The position numbers and the translations under genes were made by a program. The notes beneath the pieces were generated by a model. It was not told the origin of the DNA. It made no database searches and saw nothing but the letters and a program-made list of their open reading frames with translations. Shown here piece by piece: positions 42,078-58,988 of a stretch of 64,000 nucleotides of DNA. Numbering within the stretch: position 1 is the first letter of the stretch; each line of letters starts with the position of its first letter. Origin of the DNA: Arcobacter caeni (GTDB lineage Bacteria > Campylobacterota > Campylobacteria > Campylobacterales > Arcobacteraceae); the NCBI RefSeq assembly GCF_003063245.1, contig NZ_MUXE01000007.1, positions 1 through 64,000 of the forward strand, written 5' to 3'.

Positions 42078-43811
42078 ATGAAAGAAGTAATTAATTTTAT
42101 AAAAGCGCAAAATGTTGAAACAACAAATTTTTTTGGACAATTAAAATGTTCACAAGAAGAAGCAAAAATTTTACAATTTATGTCAAAAGAGTATGTAAAT
42201 GGTAGAGATACATTAGGTGTAATAGATATTTTAGGTGAATTTTATGATTTAAAAACATATAAACATCTGGAAAAACTTGATTTAATAAAATCACTTTTGG
42301 AATTTGGATGGTTGGTTCAAGTATCTTTTGAACAAGTAAAATTAAGTGAAGTTTCTAAACTTGAACTTATTAATTCAAGTGTTTCTTTATCAAGTGCGTA
42401 TTTAAAAATGCTTGAAAATGGAAGTAATGATTTTGTTCTTCCTGAAATCAAAAATTATAGTGACCACTTAGAATATTTACAAGACCAATTTTTTAGAATA
42501 GATTTGGCACAACAGTTAAATGTTGTTAGAAAAAACTTTGATGTAAATAGTCCTAGTTCAAATAGATTAAAATCAAAATTAGTACTTCTTGAAAATAGAA
42601 TAAAAGAGAGAATAAAAGTTACAAGTAATTCAATAATGCTTGAAGATTTTTTCAAAAATAATGAGTTAAATGAACAAGAACAAACTCTATTTTTAGCACT
42701 TTTAAAAGAAGAATATTCAGGTGGAGATGGAAGTCTGCGAGATATGAATTCTTTGATTGAATTAATTTCAAGTGATGATTATGAAAAGATAAAATATAGA
42801 AGTTTATTGGAAGAAAGTTCAACTTTAGTTTCAAAATCTTTGATTGATTATGATGAGGTTTTAACTCCATTTGGTGGGATTAATAGAAATTTTTATATTC
42901 CTGATGAGGTTTTATATAAAATTTCACATCCAACTAAAAAAAGTACAAATGTTGGAAAAATAAAATTAGATACAATCATAAAAGAACAAGATATGTTTGA
43001 GTTAATTTCAACAACAAAAACTTTGGAAGATGTTGTTTTAAATGAAAAAACAAAAGAGACTTTAGATGCACTTTTAAAACAAGTTGATAAAAATGTAATA
43101 AATCGTTTGAAACAATGGGGAATAAAGGACAAAAAAAGAGGAATTGAAGCAAAAATAATTTTTTACGGAGTTGCTGGAACTGGAAAAACACTTACAGCAT
43201 TAGCTTTAGCAAAATCTCTTAAAAAAGATGTTTTAAGTTTTGACTGTTCAAAGATTTTATCAATGTATATTGGTGAAAGTGAAAAAAATGTTAGAAGTAT
43301 TTTTGATAAATATTATGAACTTAGAACTCAAACAAAATCAGAGCCAGTTTTACTTTTAAATGAAGCAGATCAGTTTTTAAGCTCAAGAGCTTCTGGAGGA
43401 GTTAGTAGTAGTGATAAAATGCATAATCAAATGCAAAATATTTTCTTGGAACAAATTGAAAGATTTGATGGAATATTAATTGCAACTACAAACTTACTTG
43501 AGAACTTAGATAAAGCATTTTCAAGAAGATTTAATTACAAAATAGAGTTTGTAAAACCAAATAAAGCCCAAAGAATTGACCTTTGGAAAAAACTAATTCC
43601 TGTAAATTTACCACTTGAAGAAAATTTTGATATTGAAGAATTAGCAAAATATGAATTAACAGGTGGACAAATAGAGTTAGTTATTAAAAATACAGCATAT
43701 AAAATAGCTGTTAGTGACGAACCTTTATTCAAAGTTGAGAATTTTAAAGAGCAAATTACTAAAGAACAAAAAGGTCAATTTGACAGCGAAAATAAAGTTG
43801 GGTTTTTCTAA
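42078..43811 (+). CDS. AAA+ ATPase with duplicated N-terminal module
   Basis: 577-residue AAA-family ATPase. Walker A is GVAGTGKT (364-371), the pore-loop-like SMYIGESEKNV follows (about 395-405), and Walker B reads VLLLNEAD (N428-E429), with Asn where Asp is usual. Sensor 1 GILIATTNLLENLD and arginine-finger AFSRRF are in place, so the module should still bind and probably hydrolyse ATP. Before it, residues about 18-80 and 189-255 look like two copies of one helical, winged-helix-like module (FF---L---E--IL-F--KEY--G). A substrate is not evident. Confidence 0.8.
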   Translation: MKEVINFIKAQNVETTNFFGQLKCSQEEAKILQFMSKEYVNGRDTLGVIDILGEFYDLKTYKHLEKLDLIKSLLEFGWLVQVSFEQVKLSEVSKLELINSSVSLSSAYLKMLENGSNDFVLPEIKNYSDHLEYLQDQFFRIDLAQQLNVVRKNFDVNSPSSNRLKSKLVLLENRIKERIKVTSNSIMLEDFFKNNELNEQEQTLFLALLKEEYSGGDGSLRDMNSLIELISSDDYEKIKYRSLLEESSTLVSKSLIDYDEVLTPFGGINRNFYIPDEVLYKISHPTKKSTNVGKIKLDTIIKEQDMFELISTTKTLEDVVLNEKTKETLDALLKQVDKNVINRLKQWGIKDKKRGIEAKIIFYGVAGTGKTLTALALAKSLKKDVLSFDCSKILSMYIGESEKNVRSIFDKYYELRTQTKSEPVLLLNEADQFLSSRASGGVSSSDKMHNQMQNIFLEQIERFDGILIATTNLLENLDKAFSRRFNYKIEFVKPNKAQRIDLWKKLIPVNLPLEENFDIEELAKYELTGGQIELVIKNTAYKIAVSDEPLFKVENFKEQITKEQKGQFDSENKVGFF

Positions 43812-45814: not shown

Positions 45815-47041
45815 ATGCAACAACCAAATAGACTAAAACCTTTTTTTGAAAATATTCATTTTGAACGAGAAGATAATACCATGATGGTAAACTTCGGACC
45901 ACAACATCCATCTGCTCATGGACAATTAAGACTTATTTTAGAGCTTCAAGGTGAAGAAGTTGTAAAATCAAGACCAATGATTGGATACCTTCACCGAGGT
46001 ATGGAAAAAATGGCTGAGAATATGATGTATAACGAATTTTTACCAACAACCGATAGAATGGATTATATAGCAGCAACTTCAAATAACTATGGATATGCAC
46101 TTGCAATTGAGAAACTTTTAGGAATTGAGGCTCCAAGAAGAGCTGAGATTATAAGAACTATGCTTTTAGAGTTAAACAGAATCACTTCACATCTTTTTTG
46201 GTTAGCAACACACGCACTTGATGTGGGTGCCATGTCTATGTTCCTTTATTGTTTTAGAGAAAGAGAATACGCAATGGACTTAATTGAAGACTATTGTGGT
46301 GCAAGACTAACTCACAGTGCTGTACGAATTGGTGGAGTTCCTTTGGATTTACCAGCAAACTGGACGGATGATTGTTTATCATTTTTGGAAATATTAGCAA
46401 AAGAGTTAGAAACTTACGAAGGGCTTTTAACAGAAAATAGAATCTGGAAAATGAGACTTGAGAATGTTGGAGTTATTACACCTCTTATGGCAAAAAGTTG
46501 GGGCTGTTCAGGTGTTGTTTTAAGAGGAAGTGGAATCAAATGGGATTTAAGAAAAGAGATGCCTTATGGTATTTATCCTGAACTTGATTTTGATATTCCA
46601 GTTTCACAAACTTGTGATTCTTATGGAAGATATAAAATCTGTATTGCTGAAATTAGGGAATCTGCAAAAATTCTAAAACAATTAGTTCCTATGTACGAAG
46701 AATCAGATACTCAATTAATGGCCCATGCACCAAATTATATTTCAGCTCCAAAAGAGCAAATTATGACTCAAAATTACTCTTTAATGCAACATTTTGTTTT
46801 AGTAACACAAGGTATGAGACCACCTGTTGGTGAAGTATATGTGGCTACTGAATCGCCAAAAGGTGAGTTGGGATATTTTGTTGTAAGTGATGGAACTCCT
46901 TATGCTTACAGAATGAAACTGAGAACACCTAGTTTTCAACATACAGCACTTTTAGAAGAACTTTTAGTTGGATGCCAATTAGCCGATGTTGTTACAATTA
47001 TTGGTAATTTAAATATCGTTTTTGGTGAAATAGATAGGTAG
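45815..47041 (+). CDS. nuoD: NADH-quinone oxidoreductase subunit D
   Basis: 408-residue NuoD (49 kDa subunit), forming the quinone-binding cavity with NuoB. Recognised from [37 protein letters not shown] and the C-terminal [18 protein letters not shown]. Typical length. Confidence 0.98.
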
Positions 47042-47051
47042 AGGAAATATT

Positions 47052-47324
47052 ATGAAAAGATTTGATTTAAGATATTTAAAAGATGACTTCTACACTAGAA
47101 TGTTGGAACTTCTTGATAAACAAATAACACCTGAAGAAACTGCAATTATTTTGTTTGAAATTGGAGATTTTAGCCATATTCAAAAATCAGCAGATGTGGT
47201 TTATGAAGCTGGATATACATTAATGAATTCATTAAAATTTAATGAAGTAGATTGGACAATAGTAGTAAAAAAAACAAAACCCGAACTAAAAATTATAGTT
47301 GAAGAGAGTGAAAAAGATGAATAA
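47052..47324 (+). CDS. Small subunit in the NuoE position, lacks iron-sulfur cysteines
   Basis: 90-residue protein occupying the nuoE slot. It has no cysteine at all, whereas true NuoE (about 160 residues) has four that bind a [2Fe-2S] cluster. It corresponds to the short protein found at this place in Helicobacter and Campylobacter nuo operons (HP1264-like). It therefore cannot carry electrons by itself and probably has a structural or docking role. GAGGA lies before its ATG; it overlaps the next gene by 8 bases. Confidence 0.8.
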   Translation: MKRFDLRYLKDDFYTRMLELLDKQITPEETAIILFEIGDFSHIQKSADVVYEAGYTLMNSLKFNEVDWTIVVKKTKPELKIIVEESEKDE

Positions 47325-48114
47325 TATAAAACAAATTTTAAATAGTGATTTCATTATCTCTTTTGGAACTTTTATTGAAGATGAAAAATTAAAAGATTCT
47401 ATTTTAAAAGCTGTTGAAAATAATGGTGCAAAGTTTGTTTATATGCATCCTATTGATAATTCAACTTTAAAACCTTTTTATTCTCAAATAATAAAATATG
47501 AAGTTGGAAGTGAAGAGGGCATTAGTGCTTTATTATTAAATAGTTTTACTTCAAATTGTGATGAAAATGTCAAAAATTATTTAGATGATTTAGACTTAGG
47601 ATATGTTAGTGCTGAAAGTAGTGCGGGAGAAGAAGAGTTTGAAGAAGCTTTTGAAAACTCTTTAAATGCAAAAGTTAAAACTTTAATTATTGGAGATGAT
47701 TTATCAAATCATGAAAAAATAGAAAATATTATTCAATTACTTGCTTTAATAAAAAAATATTCAGATTTTAATTTAGTTGTTTTAAATGAAGACTTAGCAA
47801 AAAAAATAGATTCTTGCAAGAATTTTGATTTAAAAGAATTAGAAGAATTAAAGTCATTTAATGGAACTTTGGTTTATAAATTAATTGATGAAAATAATAA
47901 TGAATTAGTAGCGAGTCAAACTTTTGCAAACATTTCAAAAGTATCAAATGGAAATGAAGTTTTTGTAATATCAAAAAATGAAAAAATAAAAAGAATAATA
48001 AAAATTGATGAAAATTTAAATGGAACAATTGCCATATTAAAAATGAAAAATGATGAAGATATTTTTTCAGGATATAAATATAAACAAGTAAAAATTGAAA
48101 AGGTCGAAGCATAA
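47317..48114 (+). CDS. Subunit in the NuoF position; NuoG-like, no NADH/FMN site
   Basis: 265-residue protein in the nuoF slot (HP1265-like). It has neither the FMN/NADH glycine-rich loops nor the [4Fe-4S] cysteines of NuoF. Instead its segments DFIISFGTFI, YMHPIDN and KTLIIGDDLSNHEKIENI follow, in order, NuoG segments FVISVGSYL (about 374), YFHPISD and SLIVGEDLITHPNAENL (about 537). It thus looks like a truncated paralogue of NuoG's C-terminal, molybdopterin-oxidoreductase-like half. Start chosen at ATG 47317; TTG 47299 would overlap nuoE more with no gain. It overlaps nuoG by one base. Confidence 0.8.
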   Translation: MNNIKQILNSDFIISFGTFIEDEKLKDSILKAVENNGAKFVYMHPIDNSTLKPFYSQIIKYEVGSEEGISALLLNSFTSNCDENVKNYLDDLDLGYVSAESSAGEEEFEEAFENSLNAKVKTLIIGDDLSNHEKIENIIQLLALIKKYSDFNLVVLNEDLAKKIDSCKNFDLKELEELKSFNGTLVYKLIDENNNELVASQTFANISKVSNGNEVFVISKNEKIKRIIKIDENLNGTIAILKMKNDEDIFSGYKYKQVKIEKVEA

Positions 48115-50588
48115 TGAGCGATATGATTACCCTAACAATTGATGGAAAAGAAGTTCAAGCCAAAGATGGTGAATCTATTTTAAATGTAGCAAGGGCAAAT
48201 AATGTATTTGTTCCTGCTGTTTGTTATTTGACAAGATGTTCGCCAACACTTGCCTGTAGATTGTGTTTAGTTGAAGCTGATGGTAAACAAGTATATGGCT
48301 GTAATACAAAAGTTAAAGCTGATATGAATATTTCAACTAACACTGAAAATATAGAAAAAGAACGACGAGCGATAATGGAAGTTTATGATGTAAATCATCC
48401 ATTACAATGTGGTGTTTGTGACCAAAGTGGTGAGTGTGAATTACAAAATTATTCTTTATATATGAAAGTTGATTCTCAAAGTTTTAGCATAAAAGATATT
48501 CACAGACCAACACAACATTGGGGAGTTATGAATTATGACCCAGCTTTATGTATTGTTTGTGAAAGATGTGTAACTGTATGTGAAGATATGGTAGGTTCAA
48601 AAGCACTTAGTACGGTAAAAAGAGATTCTGATAATATTGATAAAGTGTTTAAAGATGAGATGCCAAAAGATGCTTATGCTATGTGGAATAAACTTAATAA
48701 ATCACTTATTGGTTATGATGCTGATGCCTGTACTAACTGTGGAGAGTGTATTTCAGCTTGTCCTGTTGGAGCTTTAGTTTCTCATGATTTTCAATATACT
48801 TCAAATGCTTGGGAACTTAAAAAAATACCAGCTGCAAATCCTCACTCAAGTGATTGTGCTTTTATGTATTATGAAATTAAACATGAATCAATAGATAAAC
48901 ACAGCACTAAAAAAATCTATAGAGTTACAAATGAACCACATTTTTCAACTGTAAATGGAGCAGGAAGATTTGCTTATGATTTTGAAAATAAAGTTGAATC
49001 AAAAGATAAAGATGCTTTTGCAAAAGCGCTAGAAGCTTTCAAAAAAGCAAAAAATATTAGATTTAATTCATATATCACAAATGAAGAAGCTTTGATTTTA
49101 GAAAAAATAGCTTCTAAAATGGGAGCAAATCTTGTAAATGAAGATGCAAAAAGATACCAAGAATTTTTAAAAAACTACTCTAAAACTTCAGGAAAATCTC
49201 TTTATTCTTCAAAATTAGCAGATGTACATAATGCAAACTTTGTAATTTCTGTGGGTTCTTATTTGAAATCTGATTTACCAAATGCAAGATATGCTTTTAA
49301 TAATTCAGTTTCTATGAATAAAGGAAGTGGATTATATTTTCATCCTATATCTGACCCAGTTATGGAAAAAATTGGTAAAAAAGGTAAAACAACTGAATTT
49401 ATCTATCATGATGCAATGGTTGAAGAGTCGATTTTATATTTTATATTATATAAATTTGGAAAAAATTTACCAGAAGAAGTTCAAGAATATATCAACTCTT
49501 TAAAAGAAACAAGAACTAAAACTTTAATAGAAGTTGTAAAAGAAAATGTTGTTGAAATCGTGGTTGATGAAACAACGGGTGAAGAAAAAGAAGTTAAAAA
49601 AGTAGTTTCTACAAATGTTTCAAAAGAAGTTTCTTACGAATATATTTCTTTATTGGCTGATTTTGGAAAAGATGAATCATTTATAGATTTACTTGATGAA
49701 ATGTTAGCTAAAAAAGATACTTTTTCTTTAATAGTAGGAGAGGATTTAATCACTCATCCAAATGCTGAAAATCTTGCAAAACTTTGTGGATTAATTGATA
49801 AATGTACGCCTTTTAGTGTAGTAATTATTCCATCTCAAACAAATACTTTAGGAGTTGCACAAATCTGTACCCTTTCAAATGAAGTTGATGGTTTTTCTGT
49901 GGGTTATAATATGAAAGCAGATTTTGAACTTTCAGCTTTAGGTGATGGAAACTTAGATATTCCAGCACTAAATCAACAAGAGGGAACTTTTACAAATATT
50001 GATAAAAAAGTGATTCCTACAAATGCAGCTTTAGGATTTAATGGTTATACATTAAACGAAATTGCAAATGAACTTTTAAATGAAGATGTGGAATATACAA
50101 TAGAATACACAGCAAAACTTCCAAAAGAAAAAGGTTATGAAGCTATTGATTTTGATAATTTACCAAATAAATTTGGAAATGACCAAGTTGAATATAGAGG
50201 TTATGAAATAAGAGCAAATGATACTTTTGTTCAAGATACAACAAAACAAATAAATATAGAAAAAATCACTTTAGCTTCTGATGAGATTTTGATTTATAAA
50301 GCAAATCCAATTAATCAATTTAATGAATTTACAGCAATTAGCCATGAATTTAAAGAAAATTTACAAGATGGAATATTTTTCTCAAAAGCTTTATTTGAAA
50401 AACTTGAATTAACAAAAGGCGATAAAGTAAAAGTAAAGGCTAATAATCAAGAGTTAGAATTATTTGCTTTTATTGATATTCAAATAGATGGAAATATTCC
50501 TTATGTATCAACATTTATGAAAAATAGCCCATCAAATGCCTTATTTAATACTTATAGATTTAATAAAGCAAAAGTAGTAAAGGCATAA
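48114..50588 (+). CDS. nuoG: NADH-quinone oxidoreductase subunit G
   Basis: 824-residue NuoG. N-terminal [2Fe-2S] domain with CYLTRCSPTLACRLC (about 38-52); the His-Cys3 cluster HPLQCGVCDQSGEC (about 99-112); two [4Fe-4S] sites CIVCERCVTVC (about 147) and CTNCGECISACP (about 205). The C-terminal half (about 250-824) is a degenerate molybdopterin-oxidoreductase fold with no cofactor motif. A 50-residue acidic/lysine-rich insertion at about 455-510 separates the two segments shared with the upstream gene product. Confidence 0.96.
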   Translation: MSDMITLTIDGKEVQAKDGESILNVARANNVFVPAVCYLTRCSPTLACRLCLVEADGKQVYGCNTKVKADMNISTNTENIEKERRAIMEVYDVNHPLQCGVCDQSGECELQNYSLYMKVDSQSFSIKDIHRPTQHWGVMNYDPALCIVCERCVTVCEDMVGSKALSTVKRDSDNIDKVFKDEMPKDAYAMWNKLNKSLIGYDADACTNCGECISACPVGALVSHDFQYTSNAWELKKIPAANPHSSDCAFMYYEIKHESIDKHSTKKIYRVTNEPHFSTVNGAGRFAYDFENKVESKDKDAFAKALEAFKKAKNIRFNSYITNEEALILEKIASKMGANLVNEDAKRYQEFLKNYSKTSGKSLYSSKLADVHNANFVISVGSYLKSDLPNARYAFNNSVSMNKGSGLYFHPISDPVMEKIGKKGKTTEFIYHDAMVEESILYFILYKFGKNLPEEVQEYINSLKETRTKTLIEVVKENVVEIVVDETTGEEKEVKKVVSTNVSKEVSYEYISLLADFGKDESFIDLLDEMLAKKDTFSLIVGEDLITHPNAENLAKLCGLIDKCTPFSVVIIPSQTNTLGVAQICTLSNEVDGFSVGYNMKADFELSALGDGNLDIPALNQQEGTFTNIDKKVIPTNAALGFNGYTLNEIANELLNEDVEYTIEYTAKLPKEKGYEAIDFDNLPNKFGNDQVEYRGYEIRANDTFVQDTTKQINIEKITLASDEILIYKANPINQFNEFTAISHEFKENLQDGIFFSKALFEKLELTKGDKVKVKANNQELELFAFIDIQIDGNIPYVSTFMKNSPSNALFNTYRFNKAKVVKA

Positions 50589-58048: not shown

Positions 58049-58124
58049 ATAATAAAATCAATATAACCAAACAATAAACCATAACTTGTTACAATCCCCA
58101 AAGAAAAAAGTCAAGGATAAGAAA

Positions 58125-58988
58125 TTGAAAACTATAAGTGTAGCTCATTCACCAGATGCTGATGATATTTTTATGTATTACGCCATTAAATTTGGTTGGG
58201 TTACTCCAAAAGATGCAAAGTTTGAAAATATCGCAGATGACATAGAAAGTTTAAATCAAGCAACGCTAAAGGGTGAATATGACATTTGTGCAATTTCTTT
58301 TGCTTTGTATCCTTTTGTAAAAGATGATTATGCCTTATTAAAAACAGCCGTTTCTTTTGGTGAGGGTTATGGACCTAAACTTATAAAGAAAAAAGGAACT
58401 ACTTTAAAAAAGAATTTTAAAGTTGCTCTTAGTGGAGAATTTACAACTAATGCACTTATCTTTAAAATCGCATATCCAAATGCAAGAATTACTTATTTAA
58501 ATTTTTTAGAAATTGAAGAAGCTGTTTTAAATGGAACTGTAGATGCTGGTGTTTTAATTCATGAATCAATTTTGAATTATAACGAGCAGTTAGAAGTTGA
58601 ACGAGAAATTTGGGATATTTGGGTTGAATTAAGTGGTGGAGATTTACCATTACCACTTGGTGGAATGTGTTTAAGACGATCACTTCCTCTAAGTGATGCT
58701 ATAAATTATGAAAATACTTTAATAAAAGCAGTTGAAGTTGCAAATAAAAACAGAAAAGTCTTAGCTCCTATGTTAATTGAAAAAGGATTAATTAGAGTAA
58801 ATGCTGAAACTTTAGATAAATATTTAGATTTATATGCAAATGATAACTCAGTAAAAATGAGCGAGTTACAATATAAAGCTTTGGATAAATTGTATGAACT
58901 TGGATATAAAAATGGTTTTTATGAAAATCTTGTAAAATCGCAAGATTTTTTAATCCCAAGTGAATATGAAGAGTTAAGAGCCAAATAA
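58125..58988 (+). CDS. mqnD: Menaquinone biosynthesis MqnD-type protein
   Basis: 287-residue protein of the MqnA/MqnD family (periplasmic-binding-protein fold, cytoplasmic here). It is probably 1,4-dihydroxy-6-naphthoate synthase of the futalosine menaquinone route. Recognised from VAHSPDADDIFMYYAI near the start, DICAISFALYPF, and SGGDLPLPLGGM (about 191-202). I place the start at TTG 58125, seven bases after AAGGA (58113-58117). The further start at 58086 would add a lysine-rich stretch over the ribosome-binding site. Its place after nuo fits menaquinone as the complex I acceptor. MqnA is the alternative. Confidence 0.82.
   Translation: MKTISVAHSPDADDIFMYYAIKFGWVTPKDAKFENIADDIESLNQATLKGEYDICAISFALYPFVKDDYALLKTAVSFGEGYGPKLIKKKGTTLKKNFKVALSGEFTTNALIFKIAYPNARITYLNFLEIEEAVLNGTVDAGVLIHESILNYNEQLEVEREIWDIWVELSGGDLPLPLGGMCLRRSLPLSDAINYENTLIKAVEVANKNRKVLAPMLIEKGLIRVNAETLDKYLDLYANDNSVKMSELQYKALDKLYELGYKNGFYENLVKSQDFLIPSEYEELRAK

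Follow-up and report, generated by a model that had tools for sequence, protein, structure and literature searches.

Introduction

The window analysed here is a 64,000-nucleotide stretch of the Arcobacter caeni genome (NCBI RefSeq assembly GCF_003063245.1, contig NZ_MUXE01000007.1, positions 1 to 64,000, forward strand), which carries a complex I operon in the order nuoA, B, C, D, X, Y, G, H, I and J, followed by further membrane subunits. Our subject is the gene in the 'NuoF' slot of this operon, nuoY, together with the adjacent nuoG (nuoG1) and a second, longer NuoG (NuoG2) encoded in related genomes. It is already known that the NuoE and NuoF slots in complex I of Helicobacter and Campylobacter hold two genes that are not nuoE and nuoF; a review names the two replacing genes 'nuoXY' (PMC6682613). 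Statements made here about papers cited by PMC number refer to excerpts of them. We read NuoY as the second member of this pair, which corresponds to Cj1575c/Cj1574c and HP1264/HP1265; the operon slots are the same, and the family was assigned by gene order. In the literature excerpts, these proteins are termed replacements of NuoEF or NuoF, and a derivation from NuoG is not stated. The features on which the analysis turns are as follows.

47317..48114, forward strand: nuoY ('NuoF' slot), 265 amino acids (aa), MopB-type, without recognisable cofactor sites, from a second NuoG
47326..47784, forward strand: nuoY segment 1 (residues 4-156), matching NuoG1 368-572 and NuoG2 about 365-520
47824..48111, forward strand: nuoY segment 2 (about residues 170-265), aligning with the last ~115 residues of NuoG2
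48114..50588, forward strand: nuoG1, paralogue of nuoY, 824 aa, iron-sulfur domains present
49215..49829, forward strand: part of nuoG1 encoding residues 368-572, homologous to NuoY segment 1 by BLASTP and including a charged insertion
47052..47324, forward strand: nuoX (NuoE slot), PF16514, relative of H. pylori HP1264 (PDB entry 2lxr)
45815..47041, forward strand: nuoD, in the same operon as nuoY

The nuoY frame runs from an ATG at 47317 to a stop codon ending at 48114; it shares 8 bases with nuoX, and nuoG1 begins on its final base. HP1264 binds flavin mononucleotide (FMN) according to a review (PMC6269979). The genome around the window measures 2.4 Mb, and the nearest named relatives, among the best 80 of 402 relatives, are Aliarcobacter metagenome-assembled genomes (MAGs).

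Sequence relationship of NuoY to NuoG

Most of NuoY is homologous to NuoG in sequence. A preliminary description of this DNA had regarded it as a shortened duplicate of the C-terminal half of NuoG on the strength of three shared segments, and all three pairs lie where it placed them: DFIISFGTF at NuoY 11 with NFVISVGSY at NuoG 375, YMHPIDN at NuoY 42 with YFHPISD at NuoG 408, and LIIGDDLSNHEKIEN at NuoY 123 with LIVGEDLITHPNAEN at NuoG 539. The spacing from the second to the third motif, 81 in NuoY and 131 in NuoG, is likewise 50 longer in NuoG as described. The kinship to NuoG residues 370-570 thus holds, although it is not limited to that region, because the C-terminus matches too. By BLASTP, NuoY 4-156 aligns with residues 368-572 of the adjacent NuoG (43.5 bits, expectation value E 6e-9); the C-terminal match of NuoY 208-263 with NuoG 765-824 is weak by this method (E 0.02) but clear by profile, where NuoY profile positions 11-279 align with NuoG1 profile positions 362-834. 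A chance match of the motifs is ruled out, since the Smith-Waterman score of NuoY against NuoG is 131, and 500 shuffles of NuoY gave a mean of 53, a standard deviation of 8 and a maximum of 85. The NCBIfam model of the epsilonproteobacterial NuoG (NF006305) matches NuoY with 85.2 bits (E 2.9e-24), far below its full-length cut-off of 591, and hhalign of the NuoY profile against NuoG1 of the window genome gave E 6.7e-16; the hhalign values are those of single comparisons and are not database-calibrated.

No comparable relationship to NuoF was seen. As a negative control, the NuoY profile was aligned with the canonical NuoF of the same genome (PF01512; second complex I, locus L090), which gave E 0.44. 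The Pfam search of NuoY returned two sub-threshold matches only; PF01512 (Complex1_51K, FMN-binding) was not listed at E up to 10, nor were PF10589 (NADH_4Fe-4S, cluster N3) and the N-terminal Fer2 and NADH-G 4Fe-4S domains, the latter two of which are found in NuoG1 and NuoG2. A PDB sequence search with NuoY alone gave nothing convincing (best E 0.6, Mre11).

Predicted structure

The AlphaFold2 model of NuoY, built from 41 sequences, has a mean predicted local distance difference test score (pLDDT) of 92.4 and a predicted template modelling score (pTM) of 0.90, and on this model NuoY has the MopB/dimethyl sulfoxide reductase fold. Foldseek ranks formate dehydrogenase H (1aa6) first among PDB entries, with E 2.8e-8 and a loose superposition at a root-mean-square deviation (rmsd) of 14.1, and the mycobacterial complex I subunit G ninth. 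In the VIA comparison, the model superimposes on formate dehydrogenase 7vw6_A over 254 of its 265 residues (Z 21.5, rmsd 3.0, chain positions 454-981) and on E. coli NuoG 7nz1_G over 240 residues (Z 16.2, rmsd 3.6, chain positions 363-907). A MopB-like fold had been anticipated in the preliminary description, and the match to molybdopterin oxidoreductases extends over nearly the whole of NuoY. As the matched range of 7vw6_A is about twice the length of NuoY, a large part of the fold between the two segments of NuoY is absent; the kept parts are presumably domains III and IV of the fold, and the absent ones the Fe4S4 domain I and domain II. The model of a second NuoY, that of locus L126, which is placed independently in the tree described below, has a pLDDT of 85.1 and a pTM of 0.86 and shows the same fold (1aa6, Z 23.7, 294 aligned residues, rmsd 3.5).

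Window NuoY contains two cysteines (81 and 167), and no cysteine column is conserved in the NuoY alignments (at most 16 of 41 rows in alignment A3 and 4 of 18 in A1). The Pfam search revealed no iron-sulfur or flavin domain in NuoY, and the Fe4S4 domain was also not found.

NuoG2 and its operon

NuoY matches at E <= 0.001 were present in 137 of the 150 genomes of the class sample, the best being either short proteins or proteins of ~670-800 residues, and 60 places with such matches were fetched for gene order. In many relatives the order is nuoABCD, nuoX, a gene for a ~670-aa flavoprotein, NuoG2 (~750 aa), NuoG1 and nuoHIJ. At locus L039, NuoG2 shows the domains Fer2_4, NADH-G_4Fe-4S_3, Fer4 and Molybdopterin over their curated cut-offs and Molybdop_Fe4S4 below it; the flavoprotein combines the NADH_4Fe-4S domain of NuoF with Fer4_20 and Pyr_redox_2. 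NuoY aligns end to end with NuoG2 over 266 columns (hhalign E 3.1e-57), with ~130 internal NuoG2 residues skipped, and this match, compared with 6.7e-16 for NuoG1, identifies NuoY as a reduced NuoG2.

The best PDB match of the flavoprotein is residues 100-567 of 9bov_A, a chain of the electron-bifurcating NfnABC (E 2.2e-80), and NuoG2 matches the consecutive part of the same chain, 557-973 (E 2.4e-24), its best PDB matches being NuoG-type chains (3.6e-49). Judged by these profile matches, the flavoprotein-NuoG2 pair resembles a GltD-NuoG module of the Stn/Nfn type, present as two genes in a complex I operon. Among six genomes of the flavoprotein type, a PF01512 protein is encoded elsewhere in two (G007 and G134) and none was found in G003, G041, G044 and G105.

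Some single loci deserve mention. NuoG2 at L150 (4927-7212) lies in two frames of 162 and 591 aa, either by a frameshift in the MAG or as a real split. The flavoprotein and NuoG2 are also present at L172, which comes from a MAG labelled Aliarcobacter butzleri. A review (PMC6682613) attributes canonical nuoEF, not nuoXY, to A. butzleri, and the label of the MAG may be wrong. Five genomes of family f2, mostly a short-NuoY family (G155, G166, G167, G190 and G197), have three matches each, and G166 (L210), like G041 (L185), has the flavoprotein and NuoG2.

Distribution and truncation of NuoG2

The 151 loci compared do not form an independent sample: 80 of them were taken as the best 80 of the 402 relatives of NuoY that a scan of the genome collection with the closer alignment, A2, yielded, and at least one genome occurs twice (L119 and G187, with identical coordinates). 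The 'class' and 'phylum' genome samples hold genomes of the same order only. The codes f and g are labels, of which f1 is read as Arcobacteraceae and f2 as Helicobacteraceae. The flavoprotein and NuoG2 occur together in 60 loci (at L059 the contig ends within NuoG2, and at L150 NuoG2 is in two pieces), and in none of the 151 was the flavoprotein found without NuoG2. A short nuoY stands in the operon, with the flavoprotein absent, in 64 loci, including two in which NuoX and NuoY are fused into one protein of ~350 aa (L159:5719-6771 and L171:5683-6741, two Campylobacteraceae MAGs). The other loci have nuoX and NuoG1 without nuoY (5/151), nuoY with no nuo genes around it in the stretch retrieved (18/151), or a stretch that starts at NuoG2 because of a contig end (4/151).

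A core tree was computed with IQ-TREE (C20) from 47 short forms, 19 NuoG2 and 8 NuoG1 sequences. NuoG1 is separate (100/100), and the short forms require five changes on this tree (three to five in bootstraps), two of them forced by the starred branches. On a FastTree phylogeny of five other complex I proteins from 55 loci, the short state requires eight changes, all forced by starred branches. By the strictest count there were at least two truncations; on our reading there were three (the main group, L126 with its kin, and L122), and up to eight are possible. The cut points are similar in the 13 short/long pairs aligned. In the close pairs (L122, L126/L136, L124 and L032), the kept stretch of NuoG2 starts near 318-370 and ends near 501-523; apart from small islands in between, lasting correspondence sets in again near 626-662. 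Pairs of lower identity (35-43%) give more fragmented alignments, in which the gap falls in the same region.

The explanation that NuoY had a single origin and was passed on by descent and horizontal transfer, with the nested cases being tree errors, has to be weighed here, and we consider it quite improbable. A single clade of all 47 short forms was rejected in the approximately unbiased (AU) test (p 0.007), L126 groups with the NuoG2 of G133 in the core tree (100/94), and in the five-protein tree both L126 and L122 fall among loci of the NuoG2 type, fully supported locally. On the other hand, long branches are present, the grouping of L122 (98/76) is not starred, and our reading is weakened when individual loci are left out: when L122, L126 and L124 were dropped, a single origin of the remaining 44 was not rejected (p 0.33), and when only L122 and L126 were dropped, the p value for a single origin was 0.185. 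The clades entering these AU tests were named after the tree was seen. The MAG cases (L122, L126 with its kin, L159 and L171) could also hold assembly errors; L126 is backed by three near-copies (L127, L130 and L136; 90-94% identical), and L159 and L171 back each other.

NuoY in the absence of the nuoXY-type complex I

Two further genes of the window mark the borders of the nuo operon; their names are provisional, given from the sequence.

42078..43811, forward strand: gene upstream of the nuo operon, which we take to be AAA-ATPase-like
58086..58988, forward strand: gene downstream of nuoN, presumably MqnD-like

In four congeners (G030, G008, G106 and G127), nuoY stands alone between the ATPase-like and MqnD-like genes. 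Since these two genes flank the whole nuo operon in the window, the operon was lost on both sides of nuoY and nuoY was left. The one complex I of these congeners is of the NuoCD type and has NuoF; the same state is found in Aliarcobacter vitoriensis CECT 9230 (L104) and Arcobacter cryaerophilus LMG 9065 (L119), and the window genome has both complexes, the nuoXY type and the NuoCD type. Orphan nuoY genes occur in four family codes (f1, f2, f3 and f5). In f2, one particular gene follows the orphan nuoY after 54-136 bases (G016, G018, G119 and G072); in operon-bearing relatives it lies on the same strand 9.6-10.0 kb downstream of nuoY (G002, G011, G081, G095, G099 and G135) or 12.7 kb downstream (G005), and in G103 (f2) other genes stand between the two. 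In f3 g14 and f5, the orphan nuoY is at places unrelated to the nuo locus.

NuoX was absent from all 26 genomes with an orphan nuoY and present in four of four operon controls; it was also absent from the seven NuoY-less genomes of the same test. Of these 26, the NuoY of G172 is known only as an E value (5.1e-25) and that of G071 reaches the contig end. A NuoCD-type complex I, recognised by PF00346 in frames of 544-561 aa, is present in 12 of the 26, and no PF00346 (NuoD) match was obtained in eight (seven of f2 and one of f3). The remaining six, all of f5, have best PF00346 values of only 5.9e-62 to 4.3e-59, compared with 2.6e-98 or lower where complex I is present, and these matches are read, from their scores, as probable hydrogenases.

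The orphan frames examined are open and conserved, with ratios of nonsynonymous to synonymous substitution rates (dN/dS) below 1 (0.04-0.74): 0.10-0.29 in f2, 0.08-0.30 in f3, 0.04-0.16 in f5 and 0.22-0.74 in f1. The synonymous rate is near or at saturation in several pairs, and five f3 and f5 pairs are saturated and gave no value. NuoY often outlasts the other parts of this complex I, which suggests that it has a function of its own.

Discussion

The results assign NuoY a concrete origin and a fold. We consider it likely that NuoY is a two-segment, MopB-like remnant of NuoG2 that serves as a docking scaffold at complex I and has an independent second role. The part at complex I is our best guess, namely that of a scaffold free of cofactors, and the second role, outside complex I, is probable. 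We further lean, with less assurance, towards regarding this 'mini-NuoG' as a stand-alone, cofactor-free two-domain MopB factor that was carved out repeatedly and selected where the complex was replaced or lost. If so, the essentiality of Cj1574c in C. jejuni would reflect the second role and not respiration; in work by Weerakoon and Olson from 2008, Cj1574c reportedly could not be disrupted in C. jejuni, and nuo genes could.

The following sequence of events may be envisaged. NuoG2 would have passed electrons from the flavoprotein to NuoG1. The loss of the flavoprotein would have left the iron-sulfur half of NuoG2 useless, and the core may have stayed for another task. Flavodoxin or ferredoxin would then deliver electrons directly, with NuoY and NuoX forming the entry tip on NuoG1. 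These carriers have been described as the electron source of complex I in C. jejuni (PMC4178425, PMC4257069), and the same entry has been proposed for Sulfurospirillum (PMC4585668). A role of the core that is independent of this complex I would keep nuoY as a lone gene after deletion of the operon.

Several observations sit uneasily with this picture. E. coli NuoG takes the last place among the 50 VIA entries listed for NuoY, behind other molybdopterin-type enzymes, of which formate dehydrogenases, nitrate reductases and arsenite oxidases match best. The Arcobacteraceae orphans have somewhat higher dN/dS values (0.22-0.74, mostly 0.5-0.7) than operonic nuoY (0.16-0.58), so constraint may be relaxed there. 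In 7 of the 15 genomes without PF00346 (G049, G050, G062, G065, G067, G070 and G124), the profile found no NuoY at E <= 1, and the second role is thus not universal. Five f2 g17 genomes (loci L184, L186, L187, L188 and L189) keep this complex I and NuoX without NuoY, and the profile finds none elsewhere in them, so that NuoY is not indispensable for this complex I. No partner, substrate or binding site was found for NuoY, and the neighbours of the orphans differ between lineages; a 2-oxoacid oxidoreductase (PF01558) was present in all 24 genomes searched for it and does not distinguish those that keep NuoY from those that have lost it. Finally, transposon-directed insertion-site sequencing (TraDIS; PMC10077673) showed Cj1575c (NuoX) to be essential in both C. 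jejuni and C. coli and non-essential in C. lari, which does not fit simply, NuoX being lost with this complex I elsewhere.

Other explanations of NuoY have to account for the same data. That it is a degenerate NuoF is suggested by its operon position and by the database name NuoF carried by HP1265 (PMC3561388), but this reading is already refuted by the sequence, profile and fold results, since PF01512 was not listed and the alignment with a real NuoF failed, the profile and fold matches being to NuoG and formate dehydrogenases; its probability is negligible. The preliminary description had likewise argued for a shortened NuoG copy rather than a degenerate NuoF, and BLASTP, NF006305, hhalign and the fold bear it out: neither a NuoF as best profile match nor an unrelated predicted structure was obtained. 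Its proposal of a NuoG-like cap in place of the FMN/NADH module survives in part. The protein is a NuoG copy, but it was first a longer NuoG with iron-sulfur domains, and what stood in that place was a GltD-like flavoprotein with the 4Fe-4S domain of NuoF. A purely structural complex I cap is also inadequate because NuoY outlives this complex I in several lineages and because five genomes keep this complex I without it. In its stronger form, in which NuoY is merely a passive cap and the orphans are relics on the way out, this idea is consistent with the position of nuoY beside NuoG1 in 64 loci, its two fusions to NuoX, the seven genomes that lack both PF00346 and NuoY, and the raised dN/dS of the Arcobacteraceae orphans. 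We nevertheless hold it to be unlikely, as orphans with intact frames and dN/dS below 1 occur in f1, f2, f3 and f5, some at positions with no relation to the nuo locus, NuoX is gone from every orphan genome, and four Arcobacteraceae congeners lost both sides of nuoY and kept nuoY alone. Very improbable, in our estimate, is that NuoY itself conveys electrons from flavodoxin into complex I. This role was ascribed to C. jejuni Cj1574c (PMC4178425, following Weerakoon and Olson 2008), but NuoY has no conserved cysteine column and no iron-sulfur or flavin domain was found in it, and flavodoxin could be bound without electrons being carried.

Comparison with known systems places the remnant of NuoG2 more precisely. 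NuoY is homologous in sequence and fold to the C-terminal half of NuoG/Nqo3/NDUFS1 of complex I; nevertheless, it lacks the iron-sulfur half and the internal ~130 residues of NuoG2, and it is a separate subunit that also occurs without this complex I. The catalytic subunit of formate dehydrogenase (7vw6_A, 1aa6) is its best structural match (Z 20-21.5), from which it differs in that no Fe4S4 domain was found and the large part of the fold between the segments is absent. The ancestral pair is like Sporomusa StnC and NfnABC subunit A (8oh5_C, 9bov_A) in joining a GltD-like flavoprotein to a NuoG-like part, and SfrB/SfrA of Geobacter are alike by description; StnC of the Sporomusa Nfn and the Geobacter SfrA and SfrB are described in PMC7483475. 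Unlike Stn/Nfn, the two parts are here separate genes in a complex I operon, the 4Fe-4S domain of NuoF is on the flavoprotein, and the operon has no FMN-type NuoF. NUO-2 of Nitrospina gracilis and Kuenenia is also similar by description, with an FMN-less NuoF2 that keeps N3 and the nucleotide-binding part; it has a NuoG2, and the excerpt of PMC3578206 does not mention a truncated one.

In the open-access literature searched, as represented by excerpts, we found neither a derivation of NuoY from NuoG nor an orphan nuoY or tandem nuoG in Campylobacterota described. To judge from this literature, the new points are NuoY as a remnant of NuoG2, its source operon, the recurrence of the truncation and the persistence of NuoY where this complex I is absent. 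The source operon is of a type with a GltD-like, Nfn/Stn-type input module on complex I. The function of NuoY can now be tested in natural cases of this complex I without NuoY and of NuoY without this complex I, and a 'nuoF' annotation in this phylum should not be taken as a sign of NADH oxidation.

The canonical, NuoCD-type complex I provided side observations of its own. At L090 (G000, contig C22), a citrate synthase gene (PF00285; 7149-8432, minus strand) lies between nuoF and nuoG. This arrangement is present in four of four NuoCD-type operons examined of f1 (L090, L216, L217 and L220) and in neither of two of f3 g14 (L218 and L219). At L221 and L222 (G146 and G061), NuoB, NuoCD, NuoE and NuoF of the canonical complex I were found, and the 12 kb retrieved gave no NuoG or citrate synthase match at that cut-off; the canonical operon is thus organised differently in f10. 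At L223 (G134), genes for NuoE-, NuoF- (539 aa) and NuoG-like (249 aa) proteins stand together with no nuoB or nuoCD matches, and from its composition this group perhaps encodes another NADH-linked enzyme.

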